DNA of 64,000 nucleotides from Leucobacter sp. OLIS6 (GTDB taxonomy: Bacteria > Actinomycetota > Actinomycetes > Actinomycetales > Microbacteriaceae): positions 124,001-188,000 of the forward strand of contig NZ_MRAV01000011.1 in the NCBI RefSeq assembly GCF_002752355.1, in the 5' to 3' direction. Position numbers and translations under genes: made by a program. How positions within the stretch are numbered: the stretch's first letter is position 1; every line of letters starts with the position of its first letter. Positions 7,141 to 39,407 of the stretch are shown one piece after another. The notes beneath the pieces were generated by a model. It was given only the letters and a program-made list of their open reading frames with translations. It had not been told where the DNA came from and did no database searches.

Positions 7141-9744
7141 CTACCCCTCGCCCGCCTCGATGAGGCCGTGCCGGACGGCCGCGCGCACCGCCTCGGCGCG
7201 GGTGTGGGCACCCAGCTTGCGGTAGAGCCGCTGGATCTGGGTCTTCGCGGTGTTGACCGAGATGCCGAGCTCGTCGGCGATGGCCTGCACGCTCTGCTGC
7301 GTCGCGAGCGCCTGCAGCACTTCGCGTTCGCGCTGCGATGGCCGTTGGATCCGCGGCAGCTCCGAGACGAGCGAGGGGGCCGAATCGACGTCGGCGAGCA
7401 GATCGGCGAACGCGGGGAACTGCAGCTCGCGGGCGATCCCGGCCAGCTCGGTGCGCAGCCGTTCGGGGATGAAGCGCACCTGCAGCGACAGCCGGCTGCT
7501 CTCGGCGACCAGGGCCGCCTGCCCGAGGTACAGGGCGACCTCCTTCGTCGCAGCGCCGCTGTCGAGCGCAGCGGCAGCGGCGATGAGGGTGCGCCAGGCC
7601 TCGGTGCGCGGGATCTCGCGGGAGCCGTCGAACGCGCCGGTCTCGCGCGAGAGCCGCAGGGCTCCGCCGGGGTCGGAGCGGAGCAAGTGCTGCAGCGCCG
7701 GGATCACCGACTCGAGCGGGTCCGCGATCCCCGGAGGCGGTGCGCCCCCGGCATCGCCGTTCGGGGCCTCAGGGCCCATCGCGGTCGGATCGACGAGCCG
7801 CATGAGGGCGAGCGCGGTGCGCACGTAGCGGGGGACCACGACGCGGTCGCCCTGTTCGGTGCGGCTGCGCAGCGCGCGTTCGAGCCTGGCCGCGGCAGCG
7901 GGGATCCCGGCGGCGGTGTCGACGAGTGCGGCGATGCTCTCGTAGACGGGCCACAGCTCCGCGTCGCCGATGAGGGTGCGCGCGGTCGTGATCGATGCGC
8001 GCGCGGTGTCGAGATCACCGCGTTCGAGGGCGAGCATCCCGGCGACGAGCGGGGCGGACGCGGTCATGAACCGTGGTGAGCGCTCCGGGTCCGCGCGGCG
8101 CAGGGCCTGCAGAGTGCCTTCGGCGGTGGCCAGGTCGCCGCGGATGGCCTGGACCAGAACGAGATTGCCGCCGAAGACCGCGTTGATGGGCGGGTTCCCG
8201 GCGGCGACGGCGATCTCCCAGGAGGTGCGCATGCATGCCGAGGCCTCGGCGAGGCGGTTCGCGGCGAGGTAGGTCATCCCGGCAGTGTTGAGGCCCCAGG
8301 CGCCGACGCCCTGATCCCGCGGCGCGAGGGTGCGCGACAGGTCCTGCCAGATCGCGAGCACCCGGTCGGCGCAGTCGGTCGCGCGTTCGAGGTTGCCCTG
8401 GATCCGGAACGCGACGGTGAGGATCGCGAAGAAGAGGATCCGGTCGGCCGGGGGAGCGGGCATGGCGAGTTGCGTCGGCTCCATGGCGGCGATGAGCCGG
8501 ATCCGTTCGGTGATCCCGGGGCCCTCCCCGCGGGTGAAGACGGCGGCGAACCAGCCGAGGTACGGGCAGGGCTCGAACCAGGCCGGCGGCTGACCGAGGC
8601 ACTCGCGCGCGATCCGGTCGAGCACCTGCGTGTTGAGCCGTGCGGCCGCGGTGACGCCGATACGCCACGCGAGCTGCGCGCCGGCGCGAGGGAACGCGAT
8701 GTCCCAGGCCTCGTCGAGACGATCCTCGTCGATCCGGTCCTGAGCGAAGGCGGCGAGCAGCGGGAGCGCGGTCGCGTCGTCGAGGGGCGGCAGCGCGGAT
8801 CGGAGACCCGCGGGGACCCGGCTTCGGGCGCTGCCGGTCCCCGGGAGGGTCTCGAGCCAGCCCGCGCGTGCGAGGTGTTGCACGGTCCAGCCGTCGGGCA
8901 GACCGAGTGCGGCCTCGTCGCGGGCGCCGAAGGCGGGCAGCAGCGCGAGTCGCTGCAGGCTCGCGCGCGGGCCGGCCGCGCCGGGATCCGAGCCGTGCGT
9001 CGAGCCGGGGCACGCGCCGGGATCCGCGTCGAGCTCGGCGTCGACGAGTTCGCGCAGCGTGCGGGTCAGCTGCAGTCTGCCCGGCACCGGGCGGCGCTGC
9101 GCGACGGCATGGCGGAGCTCGTCGAGGATCGCGGCGACGAGTCCGGGCAGGCCACCGGTCAGCTCGTCCACGAGGGTCGTCGTCTCGGTGCCGGCGTCCG
9201 GGTGGGCGTCGGCGAGGATCGCGCCGAGCTCGTCCGGGGTGAAGCGCAGTTCGGGCAGGCGCAATGTCGCCGCCGCCGAGAGCCGGTGGTGGGCCCCCGC
9301 TGCGCGGCCGAGACCGGTGCGCGATCCGACGGCGATGCGCGCCGAGGGGCCGGCGGCCTCGATGGTCGCGGCGAGTCGCGGGCCCGCGCCCGCGACGTCC
9401 CCGTCGAAACCGTCGATGACGAGCGCGTCGACGCCGGTGAGGAGCAGGGGGATCTCGGCGTCGTCGGTTCCGGGAGCGCTCGCGCTCGCCGCAGCGGACT
9501 CGCCGGTGCCGGCCGGCACAGGCCGGCCGATGGACTCGATCCATGCGCCGGCGTCGATCCATGCGGTGCGCTCGCCGAGCGCGTGGTGCCGCTGCAGCCA
9601 TCGGTCGAGCAGGGCCGTCTTGCCGGCCCCGCGCGGTGCGGTCAGCACGGCGATCTCGGTCGAATCCAGTCGGTCGAGCAGGTGGGTGCGCGGCAGCGGG
9701 GCGGCGTCGGGCCGCGAGCGGGCATCATCGGTGAAACCGGTCAC
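7141..9744 (-). CDS. LAL-type (MalT-like) LuxR-family transcriptional regulator
   Basis: 867 residues. A P-loop (APRGAGKT, about 36-43) and a Walker B-like VIDGFDGD near 110 open an AAA/NB-ARC-like signalling ATPase. The middle ~450 residues are Ala/Leu-rich helical repeats of the TPR kind, and the last ~65 residues form a LuxR/GerE helix-turn-helix (PSQREREVLQALA...NTAKTQIQRLYRKLGAHTR). LAL regulators switch on catabolic or secondary-metabolite genes in response to a small molecule. The neighbours do not reveal the target here. The GTG start sits 6 nt behind TACAGT with no ribosome site, so the transcript looks leaderless. Confidence 0.85.
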   Translation of the reverse strand: MTGFTDDARSRPDAAPLPRTHLLDRLDSTEIAVLTAPRGAGKTALLDRWLQRHHALGERTAWIDAGAWIESIGRPVPAGTGESAAASASAPGTDDAEIPLLLTGVDALVIDGFDGDVAGAGPRLAATIEAAGPSARIAVGSRTGLGRAAGAHHRLSAAATLRLPELRFTPDELGAILADAHPDAGTETTTLVDELTGGLPGLVAAILDELRHAVAQRRPVPGRLQLTRTLRELVDAELDADPGACPGSTHGSDPGAAGPRASLQRLALLPAFGARDEAALGLPDGWTVQHLARAGWLETLPGTGSARSRVPAGLRSALPPLDDATALPLLAAFAQDRIDEDRLDEAWDIAFPRAGAQLAWRIGVTAAARLNTQVLDRIARECLGQPPAWFEPCPYLGWFAAVFTRGEGPGITERIRLIAAMEPTQLAMPAPPADRILFFAILTVAFRIQGNLERATDCADRVLAIWQDLSRTLAPRDQGVGAWGLNTAGMTYLAANRLAEASACMRTSWEIAVAAGNPPINAVFGGNLVLVQAIRGDLATAEGTLQALRRADPERSPRFMTASAPLVAGMLALERGDLDTARASITTARTLIGDAELWPVYESIAALVDTAAGIPAAAARLERALRSRTEQGDRVVVPRYVRTALALMRLVDPTAMGPEAPNGDAGGAPPPGIADPLESVIPALQHLLRSDPGGALRLSRETGAFDGSREIPRTEAWRTLIAAAAALDSGAATKEVALYLGQAALVAESSRLSLQVRFIPERLRTELAGIARELQFPAFADLLADVDSAPSLVSELPRIQRPSQREREVLQALATQQSVQAIADELGISVNTAKTQIQRLYRKLGAHTRAEAVRAAVRHGLIEAGEG

Positions 9745-9863: not shown

Positions 9864-10955
9864 GTGGCCTTCATGTCGACCGACATCACGGTGGTGCTCG
9901 GCACCAGGCCGGAGATCATCAAGCTCACCAGCGTCATCCGCGCGCTCGGCGATCGGGCCCGGGTGATCCACACCGGGCAGCACTGGGACGACGACATGGC
10001 GAGACGCTTCTTCGACGATCTCAGCCTCGGGGCCCCCGACGTGCGACTGACCGGCATGTCGGGAGCCGGGCGGGCCGGGCAGATCTCGGCGGGCATCGCC
10101 GAACTCGCGGCGCACTTCGAGGCGCATCCCGCTGCGGCCGTCGTGGTGCAGGGCGACACCAACTCGACCTCGGCGGGTGCGCAGGCGGCCAACTACCTCG
10201 GAATCCCCGTGGTGCACGTCGAGGCGGGGCTCCGCTCCTACGACCGCGGCATGCCCGAAGAGATCAATCGGCTGGTGGTCGGGGCCATCGCCGACGTGCA
10301 CTGCGCAGCGACCGAGCAGGCGGTCGCGAATCTGCTCGACGAGAACCATCCGGCCGAACGCATCGCGCTGACGGGCAACACCGTGGTGGAGGCGACCGCG
10401 GAGGCGGTCGCGCGCGCCGAGTCCACCGAGCGCTTCGCCAGGGAGCCGGGTTCCAGGATCCTCGCGACGATCCACCGCCCCGAGAACACCGACGATCCTG
10501 CAGCGCTCGAGCGCGTGCTCGCGGCGCTGATCGAGAGCCGGGCGAACGCGATTCTCGCGGCGCACCCGCGCACGGTGGCCGCCGCCGAGCGCTTCGGGCT
10601 CACCGAGATGATGCACTTGCTCGACGTGCGCACGGGGCTCGGGCACGCCGACTTCCTGGCGCTCGCCCAGCAGGCCGACCTGCTGGTCTCCGACTCCGGC
10701 GGCGTGCAAGAAGAGGCTACGGTGCTGCAGAAGCCGCTGCTCGTGGTGCGGCGCTCGACCGAGCGGCCCGAGTCGATCGCCGCGGGATTCGCTCGGCTGG
10801 TGCGGCCGAGCGAGGACCTGCTGGCGGCGATCCGCTCGGCGCTGGGGCAGAGCTGGGCGCACCTGCGTGAGACGCCGTCGCCGTACGGCGACGGGCTTGC
10901 GGGGGCGCGGATCGCGCGGATCGCGATGCGGCTCGGTGATTCTCGGGCACCATGA
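9864..10955 (+). CDS. wecB: UDP-N-acetylglucosamine 2-epimerase (non-hydrolysing)
   Basis: 363 residues of the GT-B fold epimerase family. Family landmarks are GTRPEIIKL (11-21), GDTNST, HVEAGLRSYDRGMPEEINR, TGNTVVE, HRPENTDD and the VSDSGGVQEEA segment of the UDP site. It interconverts UDP-GlcNAc and UDP-ManNAc, a precursor for teichuronic or linkage-unit polysaccharides in Gram-positive envelopes. The GTG at 9864 follows GAGGGG. It appears monocistronic, with a promoter-like 96-nt gap before the next gene. No other sugar-nucleotide genes adjoin it. Confidence 0.9.
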   Translation: MAFMSTDITVVLGTRPEIIKLTSVIRALGDRARVIHTGQHWDDDMARRFFDDLSLGAPDVRLTGMSGAGRAGQISAGIAELAAHFEAHPAAAVVVQGDTNSTSAGAQAANYLGIPVVHVEAGLRSYDRGMPEEINRLVVGAIADVHCAATEQAVANLLDENHPAERIALTGNTVVEATAEAVARAESTERFAREPGSRILATIHRPENTDDPAALERVLAALIESRANAILAAHPRTVAAAERFGLTEMMHLLDVRTGLGHADFLALAQQADLLVSDSGGVQEEATVLQKPLLVVRRSTERPESIAAGFARLVRPSEDLLAAIRSALGQSWAHLRETPSPYGDGLAGARIARIAMRLGDSRAP

Positions 10956-11051: not shown

Positions 11052-11717
11052 ATGCCGATCCCACAGACCGCATCGCCGATCATTCCAGCCCGGGTGCTGC
11101 TGAAGGACGCGATCACCGAGACGATCCGCGACGCGATCCTCTCGGGTGAACTCGCGCCGGGCGCTTCGCTCACCGATATCTGGGTGGCCGAGCAGTACGG
11201 AGGCACGCGCGCTTCGGTGCGCGCTGCGCTGCGTCGTCTGGCGGGCGAAGGCCTCGTGGTCGTGCGGCCGCAGGTCGGCACACGCGTGCGCGAGGTCACG
11301 CCGGAGCGGACGCGCGATGCGCTCGCGCTGTATCGCGGGATCACCGAATCGACCGCGTTCATGGTGGCGGCCGACCTCGATGACGACGATCTGGCTCGGC
11401 TCCGAGAACGGGCGGAGGGCATGCGTCAGGCTCAGCCGGGGCCGGCGAGCGTCGCCGCATTCGACGCCTTCTACGACGTGCTGCTGGTGCGCACCGGCAA
11501 CCGACTGCTGCACGACTTCCACACGCAGATCGCCGCGCACCTCACACAGGCCGCCGCGGTTCAGGGCGTCGCGCCGCTGTATCGGCCCGAGGTCGATGCG
11601 GTGCTCGCGGCGGCCGGGGCCCGCGACGCCGCCGAGCTGGAGCGCGCGATCGACGCGCACTTCGCGCGCGTGGCGGAGGCGTTCGACGTCGCGCTCGAAG
11701 CCGAAAGGGACAAGTGA
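11052..11717 (+). CDS. GntR-family transcriptional regulator, FCD type (first of a pair)
   Basis: 221 residues. The ATG at 11052 is chosen because AGGAGG lies 5 nt upstream; a longer GTG start is in frame at 11031. An N-terminal winged helix (about 10-75, with DIWVAEQYGGTRASVRAALRRL as the HTH) is followed by a helical FCD ligand domain with His/Asp residues that in the family often coordinate a metal and a carboxylate ligand. Its stop codon overlaps the next regulator (GTGA), so the two are translated together. The ligand and target are not evident. Confidence 0.85.
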   Translation: MPIPQTASPIIPARVLLKDAITETIRDAILSGELAPGASLTDIWVAEQYGGTRASVRAALRRLAGEGLVVVRPQVGTRVREVTPERTRDALALYRGITESTAFMVAADLDDDDLARLRERAEGMRQAQPGPASVAAFDAFYDVLLVRTGNRLLHDFHTQIAAHLTQAAAVQGVAPLYRPEVDAVLAAAGARDAAELERAIDAHFARVAEAFDVALEAERDK

Positions 11718-11719
11718 TC

Positions 11720-12358
11720 ATGCCGCAGACCGCCAACCGCACGTTCCTGCGGGACCAGGTGTACATCGCGATCCGCGACGCCATCGCCGACGGTGTGCTC
11801 GAGCCGGGGGAGCGCCTCCGCGAGGACGAGATCGTCGAGTGGCTGGGATCGTCGCGCGCGTCGATCCGGGACGCACTGGCGCGCCTCAGCGACCAGGGCC
11901 TCGTCGAGATGGTCCCGAACCAGTTCACCAGGGTCGCACCGGTGGATCGCGACGACGTGCTGCAGTCGCTCGTCACGCAGTTCGTGTTCTTCCGCATCGC
12001 GATCAGCGAGGGCGTGCCGGGCCTGACCGATGAGCATCGCGCGGAGCTGCAGCGTCTCATCGATGTGGTGACGACGTCGGTGGCCGAGGGAGGGCGCCCG
12101 TCCGTGTACATCTCGGGGCTCGGGGCCTACATGCGGGTGCTCGCGCGGGCGGCCGGCAACGAGATGCTGCTCCACTACATCGATCAGAGCGGACCGTTGG
12201 TGTCGCGCGTGCTCAGCATTCCGGGCACGAGCGTCGATCTGGATCGTCTGAACGGGTACGCGGTGGACGTGCACGAAGCGGTACTTGCGGGCGAAACGGA
12301 CCGCGCGGTGACGCTGCTGCGCGAGTTCGCCGCGGCGACCGTCGGCGACCTGGAGTAG
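11720..12358 (+). CDS. GntR-family transcriptional regulator, FCD type (second of a pair)
   Basis: 212 residues from the ATG at 11720; an in-frame GTG at 11714 overlaps the preceding stop codon and is equally possible (AAAGGG lies upstream of both). A winged-helix DNA-binding domain (REDEIVEWLGSSRASIRDALARLSDQG) is followed by an FCD domain. Sequence similarity to its upstream partner is modest outside the HTH, so the two could form a heteromeric regulator or be an old duplication. Translational coupling suggests they are needed together. Confidence 0.85.
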   Translation: MPQTANRTFLRDQVYIAIRDAIADGVLEPGERLREDEIVEWLGSSRASIRDALARLSDQGLVEMVPNQFTRVAPVDRDDVLQSLVTQFVFFRIAISEGVPGLTDEHRAELQRLIDVVTTSVAEGGRPSVYISGLGAYMRVLARAAGNEMLLHYIDQSGPLVSRVLSIPGTSVDLDRLNGYAVDVHEAVLAGETDRAVTLLREFAAATVGDLE

Positions 12359-12496: not shown

Positions 12497-12522
12497 CCGT
12501 GAGCTATCGCATCAGCTCACGG
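12497..12522 (+). promoter_or_regulatory. Hairpin overlapping the micro-protein start region
   Basis: Nine-base-pair arms CCGTGAGCT / AGCTCACGG around an 8-nt loop. It contains the GTG at 12499 and its right arm ends at the first two G of the GGAAGGGG at 12521-12528. The structure could mask translation initiation of the micro-protein. Confidence 0.5.
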
Positions 12523-12702
12523 AAGGGGTCGGACCTGTACACCGCAGCACCTCCCACCGGCATCGGTGTCGCCGCTGGCGTCCTCGCCATCACGGGCGGC
12601 GAACAGCTCGGCCTCATTCTCATCGGGATCGCGCTCCTGCTCGGCGGCGCAGTCCTCACGCGCCTGGGCTGGCTCAACCGCCGTCGTGCGCGGGCCGCGT
12701 GA
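12499..12702 (+). CDS. Micro-protein consisting mainly of an LAITG sorting signal
   Basis: 67 residues from the GTG at 12499. If instead translation begins at the CTG at 12535, 6 nt after GGAAGGGG, the product is 55 residues. The core is VLAITGGEQ, a ~20-residue hydrophobic helix and an RRRARAA tail, exactly the shape of a sortase/exosortase C-terminal signal but with almost no cargo in front. It ends 25 nt before the exosortase-fold gene and is probably co-transcribed with it. Not recognised as a named family. It may be a substrate, an adaptor or a partner of the membrane enzyme. Confidence 0.6.
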   Translation: MSYRISSRKGSDLYTAAPPTGIGVAAGVLAITGGEQLGLILIGIALLLGGAVLTRLGWLNRRRARAA

Positions 12703-12727
12703 TCCGCGGTACGAACAGGGGCGCGCG

Positions 12728-13375
12728 ATGAGCGGCATCACCACCACCCGCGTCCAGCCGCTGAGCCGCCGTGCCCGCCGAGAGCGGGGCGCGGCCCCCG
12801 AATCCAAGACCGCCTCGCAGCCCCGCGACTCGAAGACGCGTGGTGCCGGTTCGCCCTTCGACCGTCTCGGCCGGGCGCTCATCGCGTTCCTGCTCGTCGC
12901 CGTGGGCGTCCTCTGCTTCGTCTTCGAGGGCGAACTGCGCTGCATCGAGACCGAGATCCAGGCCTGGATCATGAACAGCACGGGCTTGGCCGAAACCGCG
13001 GTCTCATCGGTCAACAACGGGATCCCCGCAGTCACCTTCCACGCGAACGGCACCTGGATCTCGCTCCGGCTCATCCCGCAGTGCGCGATCGCCGTGTACC
13101 TGGGAGCGGGGTGCCTGCTCTCCGCGATCCTGATCCGGGCGCCCCGGGTGCGCCGCGTCCGTCTGCTCACGGCACTCGCCGTCACCAGCTCCGGCCTCAT
13201 CCTGCTCAACCAGGTGCGACTGCTGGTCAACGGGGTCATGTTCGCCGAGGGCGGGCGCGAGGCCTTCAACTGGGCGCATGGACCGATCGGCTCCACGATG
13301 ATGATGCTCGGCGTCGCCGGATCCCTCGCCGTGTTCTTCGCGCTCTGCATCCGACGCTCGGAGCGCCGGGCGTGA
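12728..13375 (+). CDS. Exosortase/archaeosortase-fold membrane protein
   Basis: 215 residues. A charged ~45-residue cytoplasmic N-terminus is followed by four hydrophobic segments. The residues that make up the exosortase/archaeosortase active site are in the expected order: Cys119 (IPQCAIAVYLGAG), Arg164 (NQVRLLVNG) and His184 (NWAHGP). In the family, this triad cleaves a C-terminal tripartite signal and transfers the protein to a lipid or glycan. The stop codon overlaps the GTG of the glycosyltransferase (GTGA), like the XrtG-glycosyltransferase pairs of Gram-positive bacteria. A few residues around Cys are diverged, so the subfamily is uncertain. Substrates are probably the neighbouring xTG-tailed proteins (inference). 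Confidence 0.7.
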   Translation: MSGITTTRVQPLSRRARRERGAAPESKTASQPRDSKTRGAGSPFDRLGRALIAFLLVAVGVLCFVFEGELRCIETEIQAWIMNSTGLAETAVSSVNNGIPAVTFHANGTWISLRLIPQCAIAVYLGAGCLLSAILIRAPRVRRVRLLTALAVTSSGLILLNQVRLLVNGVMFAEGGREAFNWAHGPIGSTMMMLGVAGSLAVFFALCIRRSERRA

Positions 13376-15189
13376 TCGCGGCCTTCGCCGCCACGGCGCT
13401 CGTCGTCATCTGCATCTCGTTCCTCTACCTCTGGACCCTGTTCTTCGCCGGGCTCCGAACCATGAAGAAGCAGGGGGCCGCGCTCTCGACCCTGCGAGGT
13501 GCGAAGTACGAGAACCCTTTCGCGGGCGAGCCGGGTACGTTCCACACCTATTTCCTGATCCCGTGCCTCAACGAGGATGCGGTCATCGGCGCCACGGTCG
13601 CGGCGCTCGCGGGCTCCCGGTACTCGACCACGATCGTGATCGACGACGCCTCCGACGACTCGACCGTCGTCACCGCCTACGCGCGCGGCGGCGACGGCGT
13701 GATCGTGCTCGAGCGCCAGCCGCCCAACGCCCGACGGGGCAAAGGCGAGGCCCTCAACGATGCGCTCAGCCTCGTGCGGCAGCTCGTCGCCGAACGGGGG
13801 CAGGATGTCGGCCGGGTGCTCGTCACCGTCATGGACGCCGACGGCCGCCTCTCGGACGGTGCGATGGCCGCCGTGCTGCCCCTGTTCGATGACCCCGAAG
13901 TCGGCGCGGTCCAGCTCGCCGTGCGCATCCGCAACCGCGAGCGCTTCCTCACCCGCTTCCAGGACTTCCACTTCTGGTCCCTGACCTCCGTCACCCAGTT
14001 CGGGCGTCACCAGTCCTCGACCGTATCGCTCGGCGGCAACGGCCAGTTCTCGCGCCTATCCGCCCTGAACGAGGCCGGCGAGACGCCCTGGAGCGAATCC
14101 CTCACCGAGGATCTCGACCTCTCCGTCACCCTCGCGATGAAGAGTTGGAAGCTCGCGACCACCCCCAACGCCGCCGTCGAGCAGCAGGGCGTCGCGCAGA
14201 TCAGCGCGCTCTTCACGCAGCGCCGCCGCTGGTTCCAAGGACACCTGATGCTGGCGAAGCGCCTGCCCGAGATCTGGGGCGACGCCCGGCTGTCGCAGGT
14301 GCGCGCGCTCGAACTCTCCGCCTACATCCTCACCCCGTGGGTCACGGTCCTCCCGTGGTCGATCCTCTTCCACTGGGGCCTCTTCGGTCTCATTGTCGAG
14401 GGCCCCTCGTTCTTCTCGTTCGTCACCGGCTCCGCGACGCTGCTCATCGGGTTCGTGATCTGGTACGCGCTTGCTTTCGGTCCCGTCGTCGTCTCCGCGT
14501 TCGTCTACTGGAGACGCGACGAGGAGATCCGGTTCCGGACCGCCTTCCTGCACGCGCACTGCTTCCCGCTCATGAACAGCATCGCCTTCGCCGCCGTCTG
14601 GTCCGCGCTCGTCCGTATTCTCATGGGTGAGAACGGCTGGCAGAAGACCGCCCGAGTGCGGGAAGGCCGTACCGGTGACCCCGTCGAGGTGCGAGCCGAC
14701 GCCGAAGTCGTATCGATGCCCGCCACCCCGCTCGGATCGCGCATCACCATGCACCCCGCCCGCCTCGAGCGCCTCGGGGACGCCCCGGCTCCGCTAGCGC
14801 TTCTTGCCGCCCGTGCCCGACGTCCGGGGACGCAGCCACGGGAACAGCGACCCGACGGCGACGCCGATGAGGAGCACGACCAGGAACCAGATCCAGGCCG
14901 GCATCGTGAGTGCGAGCCCGAGGAAGAACACGCTCGCGCTCCCCAGATTCGAAAAGACGAACAGCAGGGCGATCACGAGCAGCACGATCGCCACGATGCT
15001 CTTGGCCGAGAGGCCCTTCGACTCGGACTTCGCTCCCGGCGCGTTCGCCGGTGCTCCAGTGGTGTGCGACATCTGTCTGATCCCCCCTTGCCGGCCGAGG
15101 GTCGGCCGAATACTGAAAACGCTAGGGGCCCCGAGGGGTCGTCGAAGCCGCGGGTGACAGCAGGGGTGACATCGCGATTCGAAAGCTGA
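13372..15189 (+). CDS. Processive GT2 glycosyltransferase, exosortase-associated
   Basis: 605 residues by the open frame. An N-terminal membrane helix (3-27) is followed by a GT-A catalytic domain: IPCLNED (63-69), VIDDASDD (~89-96), MDADG (~154-158), TEDLDL (~244) and QRRRW (~283), the D,D,D,Q-x-x-R-W set of processive family 2 enzymes. A cluster of helices at about 310-420 follows. It should polymerise or export a sugar chain using a nucleotide sugar. The start GTG overlaps the exosortase-like stop. The last ~130 codons are Arg/Glu/Asp/Pro-rich and run antisense through the LapA-domain gene, so the natural C-terminus probably lies near 14780 and the in-frame stop may have been lost. Confidence 0.8.
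   Translation: MIAAFAATALVVICISFLYLWTLFFAGLRTMKKQGAALSTLRGAKYENPFAGEPGTFHTYFLIPCLNEDAVIGATVAALAGSRYSTTIVIDDASDDSTVVTAYARGGDGVIVLERQPPNARRGKGEALNDALSLVRQLVAERGQDVGRVLVTVMDADGRLSDGAMAAVLPLFDDPEVGAVQLAVRIRNRERFLTRFQDFHFWSLTSVTQFGRHQSSTVSLGGNGQFSRLSALNEAGETPWSESLTEDLDLSVTLAMKSWKLATTPNAAVEQQGVAQISALFTQRRRWFQGHLMLAKRLPEIWGDARLSQVRALELSAYILTPWVTVLPWSILFHWGLFGLIVEGPSFFSFVTGSATLLIGFVIWYALAFGPVVVSAFVYWRRDEEIRFRTAFLHAHCFPLMNSIAFAAVWSALVRILMGENGWQKTARVREGRTGDPVEVRADAEVVSMPATPLGSRITMHPARLERLGDAPAPLALLAARARRPGTQPREQRPDGDADEEHDQEPDPGRHRECEPEEEHARAPQIRKDEQQGDHEQHDRHDALGREALRLGLRSRRVRRCSSGVRHLSDPPLPAEGRPNTENARGPEGSSKPRVTAGVTSRFES
14794..15072 (-). CDS. LapA-domain (DUF1049) small membrane protein
   Basis: 92 residues from an ATG behind AAGGGGGG. 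A short hydrophilic N-terminus, two membrane helices (SIVAIVLLVIALLFVFSNLG and a second from about 52 to 75) and a basic tail ending GGKKR match the LapA/DUF1049 family of lipopolysaccharide-assembly-like proteins; in actinobacteria the role is unknown. It is transcribed against the glycosyltransferase, and its entire length lies inside that gene's overlong open frame. Confidence 0.8.
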   Translation of the reverse strand: MSHTTGAPANAPGAKSESKGLSAKSIVAIVLLVIALLFVFSNLGSASVFFLGLALTMPAWIWFLVVLLIGVAVGSLFPWLRPRTSGTGGKKR

Positions 15190-15238
15190 GTTCTTGCTGA
15201 AAGATCCCTTGAACAGGCGGCAGTTCTTTGGGGGAAAC

Positions 15239-18200
15239 ATGCTCGGCAAACGATGGCTCGCGTCCGTGGCGGCGCTCAGCGTAGTGCTCACGGCACTGGT
15301 ACCGCTCGGCGCGACGGCAGCGTCCGCCGCCGACAACGCGGTGCTGCAGCTCAAGAAGTCGCTCGTGGGGGAGCAGACGGTGTTCGAGCCGGGCGACACC
15401 TTCGAGTACGAGATCGTGGTGGGCTGCTCGTCCACCCTCGATCTGGGCTGCCTCGACGCCGCGCTCACCGACGCGCTGCCCGAACCCCTCGTGCTGAACC
15501 CCGCGAACCCCGACCCCGTGACCGCATCGGTCGCTCCGGGCGGCACCGCGGACGTGGTGCTCGACGGCACCACCGGGTTCACCGTCACGCCACAGCAGCA
15601 GGACGCCGACGGCAACACCGGCCTACTCGCCGGCGGCACCATGACCGTGACGGTCAACGTACAGGTCCCCGCCGATACCAGCGGTGAGTTCAACGGCGCC
15701 AAGATCACGAACACCGCGCACGCGGACGCCGGCAACGCCGCCGAGGTCCAGTCCTCAGCCGATGTCACCCTGCGGGTCGACACCACGCTGGCCGCGTCCC
15801 TCTCGAAGCGGGTCTCACCGACGACGGTTCCAGCGGTGCCGGGCCGTTCGGTCGAGTGGACGATCGCTCCGGGCAACGACTCGAACCAGACGGTCGACAC
15901 GATCGTGATGCAGGATCCCGCCGCGCCGCCGTTCGCCTTCGCACCGAACCTCGAACTCGCGGGCGTCGACGTCACCGATCCGGCGGGAGCCACCGGGCAC
16001 GAGGTCGAATACTGGGTGACCGGCACCTGGACCAATGCGCCGCCGAACCCGATCGGGAGCGCCGGCGGCGTGCGTGTCACCTTCACCGGGTCTTTCGCTC
16101 CCGGCGCGACCGGCGAGGTGAAGCTGCGCACGCGGACGACCGACGCCGTCGCCGGGATCCCCGAAGGAGGATCGATCGAGGCCGTCAACGCGGCGCAGGC
16201 GACCGTCGGCAAGAACGGCGAGGCGAGCGAGCCCGTCACCGCGGACGCGAAGACCACCATCTCGGCGAGCGGCCCCGACGCGACGATCACCAAGACCTTC
16301 GACGACAGCACCCTGATCGCGGGCCAGTCCACCGTCGCCACGATCACCGCGACGAACGGCGCGCAGAACGTGCAGCGCCTCACCGTCACCGAGCCGTCGG
16401 CGGGCAAGCCCGGCCTCGTCGCCCAGGGCCTCGAGTTCACCGGTTTCGGTGAGGCCCTCGCCTGGCCGGTCGCGGCGAGCAGCGCGACCATCACCTACCG
16501 CTACACCGACTGCGCCGAGACCAGCGAGCGCACCACCCGCGTCGATTCGCTGCCCGCCGCGCAGAGCGGCTGCACCGTCGACGGCTTCACCGTGGTGTTC
16601 GAAGCCGATGGCGACGGGATCCAGCCGGAGGCGTACGCGGCGCTGCCCCTGCGCGTCACGGCGCTGCCGGTGCGGACCACCGCGGAACTGCACAGCACCA
16701 ACTTCGTCGACACGCAGGTCGAGAACGAGCTCGGCCAGATCGGCTCGGCCGCGACCGAGGCCCCGTTCACCGTCAAGCCGCTCGTCGTCGACACCGAGGC
16801 GTCGAAGCGGATCACGCCCGCAGACATCTACGGGGTGCCGGGCACCCGCGCGAACGTCGCCCTCTCAGGCAAGGTGAGCGACGACTCCACGGTCGGGTCG
16901 ACCGAGCTCGTCCTCACCGACCCGGTGGATCCCGCGACCGACGGCGACTTCTGGAACGCCTTCGCGCCCGTGCGGATCCACGACACCGACATCCCCAACT
17001 GCGTGGCGCTCAGCGTCAGCATCTGGTCGCGGGCCGACGGGGCCTGGAAGCCGCTCGCCGGCGCGACCGACGTGCAGGGCGCGCAGGCCAAGTGGAGCGT
17101 CGACATCCCCGCGAGCGTGCGAGCGGACGCCGGCGGGATCCGCTTCGCATACCGGCCGACCTGCGAGAGCACGCTGCCGCCCGGCTTCACCGCGCTCGTG
17201 AACCTCGACGTCGAGGTGACCGCCGCGCACAGCGGGCGCGAGACCTTCACCAACACCGTGCAGTCGTCCGTGCACAACGACGACGCCGTCGAACCCGACG
17301 CGACCGATACGGCCGAGGCGCCGCTCGGCGTGCACCCGCTCGACGGCACCGGCCCCGATCTCGTCGACAAGCACTGGCTCGACGGCACGGTGCCCGCGCT
17401 GTCCGGCGAGGAGCGCACCGCGCGCATCGGCTGGAGCACGCAGGGCCTCAAGCTCACCGACATGACCATCACCGACCCGGCCGCGGCCGGCGAGCTCTCG
17501 AACATCGCGACGTCCGTCTACGACGCCTTCGACCTCGTCCGCATCGCACCCGTGACCCCGGCCTCCGATCCCCTGATCGAGAACGACCGGATCACGTCCG
17601 TCCTCCGCTACTCGGCGAGCGCGGGCGACTGGGTCGACATCACTTCCGCGGCGTGCGCCAACGGATGCGAGGGAAGGTTCGGTGGCTATTCCCTCTTGCC
17701 CGCCGAGCAGCGCGACACCCTCGGTATCCGCATCACATACTCCGAACGCGTCGCGGAAGCCGGGGTCGGCGCATCCTACGATCGCCGACCCCTGGACCTC
17801 GTGTTCCGGATCCGGGACACGCTGCGCAGCGACCCGAGCGCGTACGCGCTGGGCACGTTCCACGACTCCGGCTACAACACGGGAGAGCCCGGTCTCGTGC
17901 ACAACTCCGTCGCCGCCCACGGGGTGAACACCGCGACCGGCATCGATCGCACGAGCACCGACGGCGACCGGATCACGATCATCGACAGCCCGCTCAACGT
18001 GTCGCTGCAGAAGGAGTTCGACCAGAGCCAGCTCGGCCTGCCGCAGCCCGGCACCGATCCGGCCGACTATCCGCTGATCTCGGCGAAGCTCACCGCGAGC
18101 AACGACTCGGCCGTCCGCATCACGTCGATGCGGATCAGCGATCCTGCGCCCGCGCAGGCGCAGCCGACGGTGTTCGACACGCTGAACCTGTTCTCCATCG

Positions 18201-21200
18201 ACGGCGTCACCGCGCCCGCCGGGCTCGCGGCGGCCGATGCACGCATCGTGCTCACCCGCGGCGCGACCGCGGACGCGCCGATCACCGTCGCCGCGGCGCA
18301 GGCCCTCGCTCCGAACGACCTCGCCGACATCACCGGCATCGAGGTCGTGTTCGCGAAGCCCGACGGCAGCCCGGTGATCGAACCGGCCGCAACGGGCGTG
18401 CTCGACCTCACCTGGCAGCTGCGCGCCGAGAAGCGATCCGGCGGAGCGGCCTCGATCACCCCCGCGGGGGAGTCGATCCTCAACGAGGCGCATGCCGCGA
18501 TCGACAGCCCCGGCAGGATCGCGTGTCCCGCCGACGGGTGCAGCACCGGTGAAGCGACCGCCGACGACGAGTTCCGCGTGGTCGAGGCCGACTACGCGAT
18601 CCGCACGAAGAAGACGATCGCGCCCGGGACGATTCCCGAGAACGGCTCGACCGCCTACCGCACCACGCTCACCGGGCAGCCGCTCGGCAGCGCGCGCACC
18701 ACGCTGCTCACCCTGACCGATGCGACGCCGACCTTCTGGAACACCATGGAGTACACGGGCGTCAGCATCCGGGTGCCGCGCCCGGTCAACCAGCTGCGCA
18801 TGGACGTGCTGACCGGGGCCGACTTCGAATTGCAGGGCGGCGTGCTCGTCGCCGTCTGCGACGGGGCACCCGTCGACGCGTCGTCGGACTGCTGGAAGAC
18901 GGGCGACTGGGTCGACGTGCAGCCGGGCAGCACGGCCCAGCTCGACCTGCCGGCCGGCGTCCCGGCGGGCGATGTGGTCGGCGTGCGCTTCTCGGCGCGG
19001 GACCTCGAGAACGGCGCACCCGCGCAGTGGGAGCGCCCCTTCAACCCGACTCTGAACTACGAGCTGCAGACCGAGCGGCTCGAATACCTGCGCAGCGAGC
19101 CGATGCGACGCGTCTCGACCACGCGACCGGGCCTCGACCCGAACCCGGGCGAGGCCGAGCGCGGAGTCATCAGCGACACCGTCATCGCCGACGGCACTGC
19201 GCAGTTCGGTGCGGACCAGCGGTTCACCGACCAGAAGACGGACACCGCGAAGACCACGGTCACGCACCTGACGAACGCGATCAGGGTGACCAAGACCCGC
19301 GGCACCAACCCGCTGGTCAGCCCGAGCGCCACCATCCCCTACGTGATCACCGTCGCGAACACCGGCCAGTGGGACATGACCGGCTTCCGCGTGAGCGACC
19401 GGATCGGGCTGATCGACGGGCGCTCGCCGCTGGTCGAGCCGACCCCGGCCGCGTACGATTTCGCGATCAGCGGCCCCGGCGCCCCGTCCGGCGCAGCCGG
19501 ATTCTCGGCCAGTCTCGACGCGAGCACGGGGATCCTCGACATCGTCAACGCCGACCCCGGCTTCGTGTTCAAGGCGGGATGGACCCTGACCGTCAAGACC
19601 CCGCTGAAGTTCCGCGCCGGTGTCTCGCCCGATGTGACGATCGACAACCGGGTCTCGGCGACCTCGGACCGCCTGTTCGACACCTGCGCGTCGACCACCA
19701 CCGACCTGCAGCCGAACCCCGACACCCACGAGGTCGCGACCTGCGCGGCCGATACCGCGACCGGCGCGCGCGCCAGCGCCTCCGTCGCGCTGAAGAAGTG
19801 GGTCAAGGGCGACGGGGCGGGCGACCCCGCGACCGGCGCCGACGACCTCGGCGTGCTCAACGTGCTGGGCGACGGCACCGAGTGCGATCCGTCGACGCCG
19901 GGCCTCACCGACCGCGGCTTCACCTCGTACCCCTGCGCACCGATCACCCGCCCCGGCGGGCTCGCGACCTGGCGACTCGACTTCCAGAACACGGGCAACG
20001 CGAACGCGCGGGTCATTGCGGCGGTCGACACGCTGCCCGATGTGGACGACCAGGGCGTGATCGTGTCGAGCGGACGCGGGTCCCAGTTCCACGTCACCCT
20101 CGCGGGGACCGCGGGCAGCAACCTGAGCGAGCTCGCGGACGCCGCCGACGGGCACTTCGAGCTGTTCGGCTCGACCTCCGTGCAGAGCCAGACCTGCAAC
20201 CAGAACGCGATCGAGCACTTCACCGAGGGCGCGGCCGTCGACCCGGCCTGCGGTTTCGACTGGCAGCCGCTCGCCGTCGGCATGGACGAGGCGCAGCTGT
20301 CGAGCATCCGCTCGCTGCTCGTCGTGCTCCGGTTCGACGATCCGACGCGTGCGACGAAGCCGGGCCTGCGACCGGGCGAGACGCTGCAGCTCGAGTTCGA
20401 TACGCGTACCCCGTGGGTGCTGCCGGTCGAGAGCGCAGTCGCCGACGGCCTGCCGGTCGCCTACAACTCCTTCGCGGGGGCCTCCCGCTCCGTCGCGACG
20501 GCGACGCAGCCCGAGCGCCCCGAGCTGGTGCTCGAGCCGCAGCGCGTCGGCATCGCGACCGTCACGGGGCAGCTCCAGCTGCGCAAGACGGTCGAGCGCG
20601 GCGGGTTCCCCGCCGGGGTCGAGCTGCCGAGCAACTTCTCACTGCGCGCCGACTGCGTCTCGGGCATCGCGCCCGTATCGCTCCTCGCCGCGGACGGAGG
20701 CGACGCGAGCCGGACGACGGTGCCGGGAGACGGCACGCCGGTGCTCGTCAATGCCGCGACCGGCCCCGTGAACCTGCCCCTCTTCGCGAAGTGCGGCATC
20801 ACCGAGGACCCGGCACCGGCCGGGGCGACCGTGTCGGTGGATCCGGCGGGCGGCGTCATCGTCGACCGGGATCTGTCGCAGAACGCCGCGGTGTGGAACC
20901 CCTACCGGGGCGATACCGAGCGCTCGGCCGTCACCGTGACGAACACCTACACGACCGGCGGCTTCACCGTGCGCAAGGTCGCGGATACGGGCGGCGCGGT
21001 CGATCAGAACGGCACGCCGATCGGCACCGCGCAGCGCTTCGCGTTCGCGGCGAGCTGCGATTACCTCGGCCAAGAGGTCCTGCCCCAGGCGCAGCGCGGC
21101 TTCGAGCTGCGGGCGGGTGAGACCCGGACGATCACGGGGATCCCGACCGACGCGAACTGCCGCGTGACCGAGACGGATACGGGCACCGCGGTGGGAACGA

Positions 21201-22459
21201 GCACGACGGTCACGGGCGACTCGGCCGAGCCGCGCACCGAGGCCGGCGAGATCGCCCGCTTCCGGGTCGTCCCGGGCGCGACGCCGCAGGTCGCGGTCGA
21301 GTTCGTGAACCGCTTCACCACGGGCACGCTCAGCATCACGAAGGAGCTCACCGGAGCCGGCGCGGAGCGCTGGGGTGACGGGCCGTTCACGGTGCGGGTC
21401 GTGTGCACCCTCGCCGGGGCCCTGCCCGAGACCGTCTACGACGGCGAGGCGCAGGTGTCGCGGGCGGCACCCGTCGCGACGGTCGAGCACCTGCCCACGG
21501 GCGCGGAGTGCACCGTCACCGAGACGGATGCGGGCGTCGCGACCGAGCACACGACGGAACCGGCGGACGGCCGCGTCACGATCGGCGACGACGCGGACGA
21601 TCCCGTGGCCGCGGTGACGGTCGTCAACGAGTTCCGCACGGGCGGCTTCGACGTGCTCAAGGAGGTCGCGGGACCCGGTTCCCCGACGTTCTCCGACGGG
21701 CCGTTCGACTTCGGCTACGTCTGCACCTTCGGTGGCGAGCGGATCGCCGACGGCACGCTGACGCTGCGCGGCGACGGCTCGGGAGATCCGCTCCGGTCGG
21801 AAGCGGTGCGCGGGTTGCCCGTCGGAGCCGAGTGCGCGATCACCGAGAACGGCACGGGCGGCGCCGACGAGACGCCGGCGCCGGTGAGCATCACGATCCC
21901 CGACGAGCAGGAGGGTGAGGAGTCGGTGGCGACCGCCGGATTCCTCAACGTGTTCTCGGTCGGCACCGCGACCGTCGAGAAACGCCTCGACGGGCCCGGC
22001 GCCGAGCTGCCGAGCGCGCGGAACGCGCAGTTCACGATCCTCGCCACCTGCCAGGTGGAACGCGATGGCACGCTCGTCACGCTGCACGAGGCGAGCCTGC
22101 GGATCCGTGGCGGCCAGACCCTGGCCGTGGCCGACGCGAACGGCGACCCGGTGCAGCTGCCGCTCGGCGCGCACTGCTTCATCCGCGAGACCGACCGCGG
22201 CGGGGCCAGCGCCTCGACCGTCAGCCACGGCGACTATGCGAACGCGGCCGTGATCGCGCGCTCCGATGCGTCGCAGACGCTCGCGCTCATCGCGACCAAC
22301 ACCTTCGAGCTCCCGGCCCCGAAGCCGGGCGGCAGCGGCGGCGCGAACGGAATCGCAGTGACGGGCGCACCGCTCGGCACCCTGCTCGGCACCGCCGGAG
22401 CCGCGGCGCTCATCGCCCTGCTCGGCGGGGTGCTGCTGCTGCGCCGACGGAGGTCGTAG
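15239..22459 (+). CDS. Giant cell-wall-anchored surface protein with DUF5979 repeats
   Basis: 2406 residues from the ATG at 15239, directly behind GGGGGAAAC. A signal peptide (about 1-32, cleaved after AASA) leads into ~1700 residues of DUF11/isopeptide-type beta modules with recurring 'SKRITP', 'VTDP' and 'NTVxS' segments. Five C-terminal DUF5979 repeats of ~105-125 residues start near 1775, 1905, 2029, 2134 and 2241, each with a (G)(F/L)xVxK core and paired cysteines. The tail has a Pro/Gly linker, IAVTGAP (~2371), a hydrophobic helix and RRRRS. It is a fibrous adhesin-like surface protein, anchored by a sortase or by the nearby exosortase-like enzyme (inference). Confidence 0.88.
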   Translation: MLGKRWLASVAALSVVLTALVPLGATAASAADNAVLQLKKSLVGEQTVFEPGDTFEYEIVVGCSSTLDLGCLDAALTDALPEPLVLNPANPDPVTASVAPGGTADVVLDGTTGFTVTPQQQDADGNTGLLAGGTMTVTVNVQVPADTSGEFNGAKITNTAHADAGNAAEVQSSADVTLRVDTTLAASLSKRVSPTTVPAVPGRSVEWTIAPGNDSNQTVDTIVMQDPAAPPFAFAPNLELAGVDVTDPAGATGHEVEYWVTGTWTNAPPNPIGSAGGVRVTFTGSFAPGATGEVKLRTRTTDAVAGIPEGGSIEAVNAAQATVGKNGEASEPVTADAKTTISASGPDATITKTFDDSTLIAGQSTVATITATNGAQNVQRLTVTEPSAGKPGLVAQGLEFTGFGEALAWPVAASSATITYRYTDCAETSERTTRVDSLPAAQSGCTVDGFTVVFEADGDGIQPEAYAALPLRVTALPVRTTAELHSTNFVDTQVENELGQIGSAATEAPFTVKPLVVDTEASKRITPADIYGVPGTRANVALSGKVSDDSTVGSTELVLTDPVDPATDGDFWNAFAPVRIHDTDIPNCVALSVSIWSRADGAWKPLAGATDVQGAQAKWSVDIPASVRADAGGIRFAYRPTCESTLPPGFTALVNLDVEVTAAHSGRETFTNTVQSSVHNDDAVEPDATDTAEAPLGVHPLDGTGPDLVDKHWLDGTVPALSGEERTARIGWSTQGLKLTDMTITDPAAAGELSNIATSVYDAFDLVRIAPVTPASDPLIENDRITSVLRYSASAGDWVDITSAACANGCEGRFGGYSLLPAEQRDTLGIRITYSERVAEAGVGASYDRRPLDLVFRIRDTLRSDPSAYALGTFHDSGYNTGEPGLVHNSVAAHGVNTATGIDRTSTDGDRITIIDSPLNVSLQKEFDQSQLGLPQPGTDPADYPLISAKLTASNDSAVRITSMRISDPAPAQAQPTVFDTLNLFSIDGVTAPAGLAAADARIVLTRGATADAPITVAAAQALAPNDLADITGIEVVFAKPDGSPVIEPAATGVLDLTWQLRAEKRSGGAASITPAGESILNEAHAAIDSPGRIACPADGCSTGEATADDEFRVVEADYAIRTKKTIAPGTIPENGSTAYRTTLTGQPLGSARTTLLTLTDATPTFWNTMEYTGVSIRVPRPVNQLRMDVLTGADFELQGGVLVAVCDGAPVDASSDCWKTGDWVDVQPGSTAQLDLPAGVPAGDVVGVRFSARDLENGAPAQWERPFNPTLNYELQTERLEYLRSEPMRRVSTTRPGLDPNPGEAERGVISDTVIADGTAQFGADQRFTDQKTDTAKTTVTHLTNAIRVTKTRGTNPLVSPSATIPYVITVANTGQWDMTGFRVSDRIGLIDGRSPLVEPTPAAYDFAISGPGAPSGAAGFSASLDASTGILDIVNADPGFVFKAGWTLTVKTPLKFRAGVSPDVTIDNRVSATSDRLFDTCASTTTDLQPNPDTHEVATCAADTATGARASASVALKKWVKGDGAGDPATGADDLGVLNVLGDGTECDPSTPGLTDRGFTSYPCAPITRPGGLATWRLDFQNTGNANARVIAAVDTLPDVDDQGVIVSSGRGSQFHVTLAGTAGSNLSELADAADGHFELFGSTSVQSQTCNQNAIEHFTEGAAVDPACGFDWQPLAVGMDEAQLSSIRSLLVVLRFDDPTRATKPGLRPGETLQLEFDTRTPWVLPVESAVADGLPVAYNSFAGASRSVATATQPERPELVLEPQRVGIATVTGQLQLRKTVERGGFPAGVELPSNFSLRADCVSGIAPVSLLAADGGDASRTTVPGDGTPVLVNAATGPVNLPLFAKCGITEDPAPAGATVSVDPAGGVIVDRDLSQNAAVWNPYRGDTERSAVTVTNTYTTGGFTVRKVADTGGAVDQNGTPIGTAQRFAFAASCDYLGQEVLPQAQRGFELRAGETRTITGIPTDANCRVTETDTGTAVGTSTTVTGDSAEPRTEAGEIARFRVVPGATPQVAVEFVNRFTTGTLSITKELTGAGAERWGDGPFTVRVVCTLAGALPETVYDGEAQVSRAAPVATVEHLPTGAECTVTETDAGVATEHTTEPADGRVTIGDDADDPVAAVTVVNEFRTGGFDVLKEVAGPGSPTFSDGPFDFGYVCTFGGERIADGTLTLRGDGSGDPLRSEAVRGLPVGAECAITENGTGGADETPAPVSITIPDEQEGEESVATAGFLNVFSVGTATVEKRLDGPGAELPSARNAQFTILATCQVERDGTLVTLHEASLRIRGGQTLAVADANGDPVQLPLGAHCFIRETDRGGASASTVSHGDYANAAVIARSDASQTLALIATNTFELPAPKPGGSGGANGIAVTGAPLGTLLGTAGAAALIALLGGVLLLRRRRS

Positions 22460-37769: not shown

Positions 37770-39407
37770 GTGACCGACTCCCAGCTGCTCCACTGCACCG
37801 GCCGCTTCGTGCGTACCGACCTCGACTGCGTCGGCACCGATGGCGTGCCCGCCGACCCGACCGCCGCACCCGAGGCGATGCTCGTCCGAGACGGGATCAT
37901 CGTCGCGATCGGATCCCGCGACGAGGTGCCCGCGCCCGCGGGCGCCCGGAGCATCGATCTCGGCGAGGGCTGGGCGATCCCGGGTCTCATCGAGCCGCAC
38001 GGCCACCCCTCGGAGTCCGCCGCGCTCATGGGCGACGGCACCATCGACATCCGACCCGTCACTCTCGGCACCGCCGACGAGGTGTGGGCGGCGATCCGCA
38101 CGGCGCTCGCCGCCGATCCACGACCGGAGCGCGTCGTCGCGAACGGCTGGGATCCGCTGCTGCAGCGCGGACTCGTGCCGCCTACGATCCAGGAGCTCGA
38201 CGCGCTCGCGGGCGAGATCCCGCTCGTGATCGTGCACAACTCCCTCCACTCGGTGTACTTCAACTCGGCGGCGGCGCGCGAAGCCGGCGTCGATCGCGAC
38301 ACCCCCGATCCGGTGGGCGCCTCCTACGGGCACGACGGATTCGGAGAGCTCAGCGGCGTCGCCTACGAGGCCGCCGCCGTCGCGCGCATCGCGGGCCCCG
38401 CGCTGGCCGCCGCCGAGGCCGACATGCCGAGGCGCCTGGGCGCGCACCTCGCCGAGCTGCGACGGCGCGGCATCACGACCATCGCCGACCTCACCTGGAC
38501 CGAGGACCTCGCGCGCCTCGCGACCGGTATGTCGGCGGCCGGGCAGCTGCCGATCCGTCTGCGCGGCTACGAGATGTCGAAGCCCGGTGCGACCGCCACC
38601 GCGAAGCTCGACAACGGCGACGCCCGTTACCGGCAGGTGGGGATCAAGATCTGGTCGGACGGCTCGCCCTGGGTCGGCAACATCGCGACCTCGTTCCCCT
38701 ACCTCGACACGGCGGCGACGCGCGCGCTCGGCTTCGCACCCGGGCACATCGGCCACGCGAACTACTCGACCGAGCAGCTCATCGAGATCGGATCGCAGTA
38801 CGCGGGGGAGGGCTGGCAGTTCGCCTGCCACGCGCACGGCGACGTCGCGATCGACAGCACGCTCGACGCCTACGAGGAGCTGATCCGGCGCTTCGACCTG
38901 AGCGACCACCGATTCCGGATCGAGCACTGCGGCCTCATGACGCCGGAGCAGTTCCGGCGTGCCGCGGCGCTGGGTGCGACCGTCAGCCTGTTCGTCGATC
39001 ACATCACCTATTGGGGCGACGTGCTGGTCGACGACCTGTTCGGCGAGCACGGAGCGGCCTGGGCCGACGCAGGGGCGGCGTTCGCCGCCGGGCACCGCGC
39101 GACGTTCCACAACGATGGCACGGTCACGCCGTGCGAGCCGCTGCGCAACATGGCGGTCGCCGAGACCCGCACCTCGCGCACGGGGCGCAGGCTGGACGGC
39201 GGCACCGGGGTGAGGCGCCTCGACGCGCTGCGGGCGCACACCGCGAACGCGGCCTGGCAGCTGCGCAGCGAGCACGAGATCGGGGCGCTCGCACCGGGCC
39301 TCCGCGCCGACTTCGCGGTGCTCGACGTGGATCCGCGCACGGCGGAACCGGAGGCGCTGGCCGGGGCGCGGACGCTCGCGACCGCGGTCGACGGCGAGCT
39401 CGACTAG
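37770..39407 (+). CDS. Amidohydrolase, YtcJ type (first of two)
   Basis: 545 residues from a GTG behind GAAAGG. TIM-barrel amidohydrolase: IEPHGHPSE (metal HxH, ~75-83), the QVGIKIWSDGSPW strand, CHAHGD (~352-357), RIEHCGLM and a C-terminal beta-sandwich. YtcJ-type enzymes hydrolyse N-acyl or formamide bonds with one or two zinc ions. An identical length and the same architecture are found in the amidohydrolase at 55231-56868. Substrate unknown. Confidence 0.85.
   Translation: MTDSQLLHCTGRFVRTDLDCVGTDGVPADPTAAPEAMLVRDGIIVAIGSRDEVPAPAGARSIDLGEGWAIPGLIEPHGHPSESAALMGDGTIDIRPVTLGTADEVWAAIRTALAADPRPERVVANGWDPLLQRGLVPPTIQELDALAGEIPLVIVHNSLHSVYFNSAAAREAGVDRDTPDPVGASYGHDGFGELSGVAYEAAAVARIAGPALAAAEADMPRRLGAHLAELRRRGITTIADLTWTEDLARLATGMSAAGQLPIRLRGYEMSKPGATATAKLDNGDARYRQVGIKIWSDGSPWVGNIATSFPYLDTAATRALGFAPGHIGHANYSTEQLIEIGSQYAGEGWQFACHAHGDVAIDSTLDAYEELIRRFDLSDHRFRIEHCGLMTPEQFRRAAALGATVSLFVDHITYWGDVLVDDLFGEHGAAWADAGAAFAAGHRATFHNDGTVTPCEPLRNMAVAETRTSRTGRRLDGGTGVRRLDALRAHTANAAWQLRSEHEIGALAPGLRADFAVLDVDPRTAEPEALAGARTLATAVDGELD

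Follow-up and report, generated by a model that had tools for sequence, protein, structure and literature searches.

How does an exosortase come to share a gene row with a sugar-polymer synthase and with proteins that carry the tails of sortase substrates? The question is raised by a 64,000-nucleotide stretch of the genome of Leucobacter sp. OLIS6 (contig NZ_MRAV01000011.1, positions 124,001 to 188,000; hereafter the window), in which genes for a micro-protein with a Leu-Ala-x-Thr-Gly (LAxTG) signal, for exosortase R (XrtR), for a family 2 glycosyltransferase (GT2) and for a giant surface protein with an IAVTG tail follow one another. XrtR is a known but little-studied enzyme that is thought to fasten proteins to a cell-surface sugar polymer, and the compound that exosortases join to their clients is called unidentified in PMC7468200. 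The genes considered here provide a compact set (Xrt, GT2, an epimerase, one client and one micro-protein) for testing what this compound is. The explanation that we favour, at close to an even chance, is that the locus encodes an actinobacterial exosortase-glycan module together with a separate micro-protein of sortase type. The micro-protein may be tied more closely to the sugar-polymer synthase than to XrtR.

The exosortase and its gene company

The initial annotation, made from the letters of the window, had described the enzyme as a membrane protein with Cys119, Arg164 and His184 in exosortase order, perhaps belonging to a new exosortase-like system, and had proposed a hidden Markov model search against the exosortase and archaeosortase families. 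This search matched the enzyme to XrtR (NF012138) with 214.2 bits against a cut-off of 150, over profile positions 1-160 of 160, and by a narrow margin to the superfamily signature TIGR04178 (23.4 bits, cut-off 23), while the XrtP and XrtS models gave 45 and 36 bits. Since the enzyme exceeds the XrtR cut-off, a new exosortase family was rejected; by its sequence the protein is assigned to the known family, from which it has no family-level difference. The reading as an exosortase therefore held and the suggested novelty did not. Poor conservation of the Cys, Arg and His residues had been named as grounds for refutation, and the opposite was seen, with all three invariant in 30 of 30 collected Xrt proteins. 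A predicted structure (AlphaFold) is mostly helical and confident in the membrane part (mean predicted local distance difference test score, 84); a Foldseek search with this model gave no PDB match at E <= 0.001, and sequence matches of the enzyme to solved structures were to lipoprotein signal peptidase only and weak (E 0.11-0.15).

Within the genus the distribution of XrtR is patchy (5 of 54 genomes, four of them above the cut-off). Matches were obtained in 17 of 297 genomes of the order and in 10 of 396 genomes of a phylum sample, and in each of these two sets the window's own genome was the one match above the cut-off. The locus counts that follow exclude G056 and the eight weak ones among the ten phylum-sample matches, which were followed for at most 3.4 kb; a GT2 adjoins Xrt in two of these eight.

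A total of 29 Xrt loci were read, of which 20 have a micro-protein in the gene row of Xrt and nine, of XrtP type, do not; the loci of relatives were read by six-frame profile searches and a retrained gene caller, so gene starts there are the caller's predictions. All 29 loci contain a GT2, as the pairing of exosortase and GT2 pointed out in the initial annotation would have it. An epimerase of WecB type is present in 23 of the 29 (14 of the 20 with a micro-protein and all nine of XrtP type), and of the six loci that lack it one lies on a contig of 3.5 kb. In 26 of the 29 there is a surface protein with a tail made up of a proline-containing segment, a hydrophobic stretch and basic residues: in 17 of the 20 micro-protein loci (truncated in one by a contig end) and in all nine of XrtP type. 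The three exceptions are the loci of the window genome, Leucobacter sp. Ag1 and G816. No xTG stands ahead of the hydrophobic stretch in any of the 26 tails (the lone pattern match, in L041, follows the stretch), and in four XrtR-clade loci the tail motif is DTPV-xxx-I-GG or near it. From these comparisons, a proline-containing, hydrophobic and basic tail without xTG is likely to be the exosortase signal. The same four loci have an acyltransferase-3/SGNH gene, confirmed with Pfam in the two tested, whose product is likely a glycan modifier.

In an unrooted tree, the nine XrtP-type loci form one group (support 92/87, short of the level that the tool marks with a star) that adjoins a micro-protein-bearing relative, so that a single loss of the micro-protein could account for all nine. 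Eight of these loci (L036-L043) have a gene of ~310-390 codons immediately ahead of Xrt, in the place that the micro-protein takes elsewhere; one of its products gave weak GAF and GGDEF matches in Pfam and another had no NCBIfam match.

The gene company of the module (Xrt, GT2, WecB epimerase and one proline-tailed surface protein) is also that of exosortases P and S (NF012139, NF033767) with the NF053846 glycosyltransferase. The nine XrtP-type loci differ from the window in having no micro-protein, and the window proteins score under the XrtP, XrtS and NF053846 cut-offs. The host of the module has no outer membrane, unlike the hosts of PEP-CTERM/EpsH systems. The latter share with the module the Cys-Arg-His order, which was put forward with the name exosortase in 2006, a tripartite tail and nearby polysaccharide genes (PMC1569441), but the module's tail motif differs, one client is seen per locus and Pfam Exosortase_EpsH (PF09721) has no match in the whole window genome. 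For ArtA, the critical residues are Cys173, Arg214 and Arg253 (PMC9263693). The XrtG system of Firmicutes, named among over-expressed transcripts, likewise combines an exosortase, a glycosyltransferase and a Firmicu-CTERM client in one set (PMC12854382), but the window GT2 has only 20 bits to TIGR03111, against a cut-off of 364. NCBIfam already includes models for XrtR, for an XrtP-associated glycosyltransferase and for a LAXTG small protein; a literature search found no paper combining exosortase with XrtR, nor exosortase with Leucobacter.

The LAxTG micro-protein and the glycosyltransferase

The open reading frame of the micro-protein (12499-12702, plus strand) has 67 codons when counted from a GTG, but alignment with relatives and a ribosome-binding-like GGAAGGGG box favour a CTG at 12535, which would give 55 residues with Tyr directly after the start. 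This CTG is identical in Leucobacter sp. Ag1 and, judged from the alignment, is the likely start. A protein that starts with CTG could be overlooked or mis-started by annotation pipelines.

All 23 copies of the micro-protein have LAxTG: the L, A, T and G never vary, nor does an Arg that follows the helix, the x is free, and Tyr stands at position 2 in 22 of them. Some of these copies were found with patterns requiring TG, which inflates the LAxTG count; a cleaner set is provided by ten micro-proteins found with a profile in a family sample, all ten of which have LAxTG. In 30 first-order Markov shuffles of the window, no LAxTG or LPxTG tail followed by hydrophobic and basic segments appeared. 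The view that this is a conserved sorting-signal protein, taken in the initial annotation, is thus upheld. With its LAXTG, hydrophobic helix and basic end, the protein has the pattern of a class E sortase client, and class E sortases accept LAXTG signals (PMC5148588). The clients of SrtE1 of Streptomyces coelicolor share this signal, and a class E sortase is also encoded in the window genome; those of the clients that PMC5148588 names are chaplins, which are displayed proteins, whereas the micro-protein has only a ~20-residue peptide before the cut site. In size and plan it resembles the LAXTG motif-containing small protein (NF058583), to which it scores 16.9 bits, under the cut-off of 65. Four of six tested relatives score 22 to 38 bits with this model, none of the six reaches the cut-off and two have no match, one of which narrowly passes the LPXTG-anchor cut-off (16.3 versus 15.9).

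Which gene the micro-protein accompanies was examined by a held-out search of the family sample (398 genomes, E <= 1e-7), where the profile yielded matches in 14 new genomes: the 10 free-standing micro-proteins mentioned above and four tails of long open reading frames. The free-standing ones have a GT2 in the fragment in 10 of 10 cases, an Xrt in the same row in 7 and an Xrt anywhere in the genome in 8, and no Xrt is present in the four tail-only genomes. In G946 the GT2 lies on the opposite strand within the row of Xrt, micro-protein and GT2. In G1092 the micro-protein and GT2 are together with Xrt 270 kb away, and in G1090 and G894, two genomes of one genus in which no Xrt was found, the micro-protein lies 22 and 16 bases from a GT2 of a different type. 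Because of these two separation events, the GT2 appears to be the steadier partner, and the micro-protein is most likely a GT2 partner that would be sorted by a class E sortase. Being parted from Xrt but not from GT2, it points to a role of a sortase signal in the anchoring or building of a glycan. Among the papers listed in literature searches, none describes such a role in its title or the start of its abstract, and those listed for LAXTG deal, by title, with sortases, surface proteins and other subjects.

Pairs of GT2 and LAxTG micro-protein in genomes where no exosortase was found lie at L196:6656-8134 and L199:8030-9523. An order-wide search with the micro-protein (E <= 0.001) yielded matches in 107 of 297 genomes. 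Eight of the matches have 59-76 bits, all in genomes used to build the profile; the other listed matches have ~34 bits or less and lie mostly in long frames, with a few weak ones in short frames (for example, 97 residues in G294), among which solitary copies are possible.

The GT2 begins with GTG at 13372 and contains DDASDD, DADG, TEDLD and QRRRW, which we take to be the mark of processive GT2 enzymes. Its score with the XrtP-associated glycosyltransferase model (NF053846) is 261.6 bits, under the cut-off of 520. Its frame has no stop where the relatives end and continues for ~390 nucleotides to 15189, largely antisense to the gene at 14797-15072; the same frame of 605 codons is open in Leucobacter sp. 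Ag1.

The giant protein, the sortases and the competing explanations

The 2406-residue giant with its IAVTGAP-helix-RRRRS tail is encoded as the initial annotation had reported, and its likely relationship to XrtR can be judged from its relatives. A search with its first 900 residues (E <= 1e-10) gave matches in 20 of 54 genus genomes, comprising 3 of the 5 Xrt-bearing genomes and 17 of the 49 others. Beyond two near-identical strains, and apart from additional copies in two genomes and a weak match in G322, 17 homologues were read to the end, and all have an LxxTG-helix-basic tail, 16 of them in genomes without XrtR. The giant is disfavoured as an XrtR client because its homologues keep such tails in genomes that have no XrtR, and because the surface proteins of Xrt loci carry proline-containing tails without xTG; on these grounds it is most likely a sortase client. 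The statement that no classical sortase is encoded in the window held (no PF04203 match), but not for the genome, which has three sortases, one class E (LAxTG type) and two class C, one of the three ~23 kb before the window. The genome-wide count that had been proposed gave 22 other xTG tails among the 30 loci read of 42 matches, and 14 of them are LAxTG.

On the favoured explanation, the epimerase would make uridine diphosphate-N-acetylmannosamine, the GT2 would build and extrude an amino-sugar polymer, and XrtR would cut the client's tail and join the new C-terminus to this polymer or its precursor; these steps are proposed because of family knowledge and gene company. The micro-protein would enter the membrane with its N-terminus outside and be cut between the T and G of LAxTG by the housekeeping class E sortase, so that its short N-terminal peptide would be fixed to the wall, holding or serving the GT2 product, a part assigned to it because of the separation events. 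The giant would be an ordinary sortase client adjoining the module in two closely related strains.

Several observations weigh against this explanation, and some of them suit its rivals. Of the 21 Xrt genomes with a micro-protein, 20 have it in one gene row with Xrt, and among the 20 loci it directly adjoins Xrt in 12, with the GT2 between them in 8. Such frequent adjacency means that the micro-protein fits an Xrt substrate too, and we consider it somewhat unlikely that it is itself the XrtR substrate, perhaps the sole one in the window strain, with LAITG cut between T and G and the short peptide joined to the GT2 glycan. The nesting of the XrtP clade, which has no micro-protein, among micro-protein-bearing Xrts in the unrooted tree is consistent with this alternative, as is the search of the window genome, in which no other XrtR-type tail was found. 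Its weak points are the retention of the LAxTG micro-protein beside a GT2 in G1090, G894 and, far from Xrt, G1092, the nature of LAxTG as a class E signal, and the different, proline-containing tail of the co-encoded surface proteins. The first two of these genomes count as one event, being of one genus and having a GT2 of another type, and the 10 of 10 for GT2 vicinity is a raw count, uncorrected for the rate at which GT2s lie near any small gene. The class E sortase, in turn, was examined in the window genome only. A profile search for the proline-type XrtR tail in the window genome and in Leucobacter sp. Ag1 gave nothing below E 0.4; of 11 held-out tails this profile recovers 2, which are both of those from the XrtR clade, and in a search of four genomes its clear matches were the two tails that built it. 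With no proline-type client found in the window genome, the giant remains a candidate client by position.

The initial annotation had proposed just this, that the enzyme attaches the giant and other xTG-tailed proteins to the GT2 glycan; the pairing of enzyme and GT2 in that proposal stands, but the giant as client is disfavoured by the tails of its homologues and by the proline-type tails elsewhere, and we regard the proposal as quite improbable. The giant gene starts 0.4 kb beyond the conserved part of the GT2 gene, a 95% identical copy occupies the same place in Leucobacter sp. Ag1, and the LPXTG-anchor model (TIGR01167) misses the giant's tail, as it does the micro-protein, among 42 matches at E <= 10 in the window genome; an NCBIfam scan at E <= 1 did not report the tail either. 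These points would suit an XrtR client. Against them stand, besides the homologues, the 22 xTG tails and three sortases of the window genome, the minus-strand gene that parts GT2 from giant, and Leucobacter komagatae, where XrtR has an adjoining proline-type client and a giant homologue with LPTTG lies ~70 kb away. Other processive synthases have small subunits, and the micro-protein could likewise be an uncut structural or regulatory subunit of the GT2, in which LAxTG matters for packing only. Its constant proximity to GT2 in the held-out matches and a length too short for a display protein agree with such a subunit, but the invariant L, A, T and G around a variable middle residue in all 23 copies, which were detected partly with the motif as guide, form a sortase-recognition pattern, and this alternative seems very improbable to us. 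A further, distinctly unlikely variant is that the micro-protein serves as a peptide primer or anchor, with the GT2 product on its exported N-terminus, perhaps attached via the Tyr at position 2; the class E sortase would link this peptide to the peptidoglycan, and the exosortase, in genomes that have Xrt, would add one surface protein to the same polymer. If true, this would mean a sortase-anchored polysaccharide and two unrelated transpeptidases acting on one glycan.

Gene layout and neighbouring genes

Features of the locus and its surroundings, with coordinates in the window
Feature	Position	Strand	Support
Large LuxR/MalT-like regulator, possible module regulator	7141..9744	-	Helix-turn-helix matches under curated cut-offs
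WecB-type non-hydrolysing UDP-N-acetylglucosamine 2-epimerase	9864..10955	+	TIGR00236 274.5 bits, cut-off 210.15
GntR-family regulator, likely incidental or regulatory	11094..11717	+	
Second GntR-family regulator	11714..12358	+	
LAxTG micro-protein: brief N-terminal part followed by LAITG, a single hydrophobic helix and an Arg-rich end	12535..12702	+	
Exosortase R (XrtR), Cys119/Arg164/His184, 215 residues	12728..13375	+	NF012138 214.2 bits, cut-off 150
GT2 glycosyltransferase, processive type	13372..14799, frame open to 15189	+	PF13641 93 bits, cut-off 27
Small membrane protein, outside the assigned module	14797..15072	-	Weak Holin-X match under cut-off
Giant surface protein, DUF5979 repeats, IAVTG tail, 2406 residues	15239..22459	+	

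All genes named in the initial annotation were found where it had placed them, including the GTGA overlap, in which the GTG start of the GT2 overlaps the TGA of the enzyme. The minus-strand gene for the small membrane protein separates the conserved portion of the GT2 gene from the giant gene, so GT2 and giant do not form one simple operon. LuxR-type genes are also present in the loci of Leucobacter sp. Ag1, L. komagatae, G317 and G273. In Leucobacter sp. Ag1, a 667-residue protein with an LATTG tail (L026:1722-3725) adjoins the LuxR-type gene, and it is missing at the matching place in the window.

The second anchored protein that had been reported, with an LSTTGAGG tail, does end at 1534 and is the C-terminal part of a 1792-residue protein starting before the window. 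It is the last of three xTG-tailed proteins in a row at 1-1534 and upstream (L149). Elsewhere in the window, two genes of 545 codons each (37770-39407 and 55231-56868) encode proteins with similar C-termini and are perhaps paralogues.

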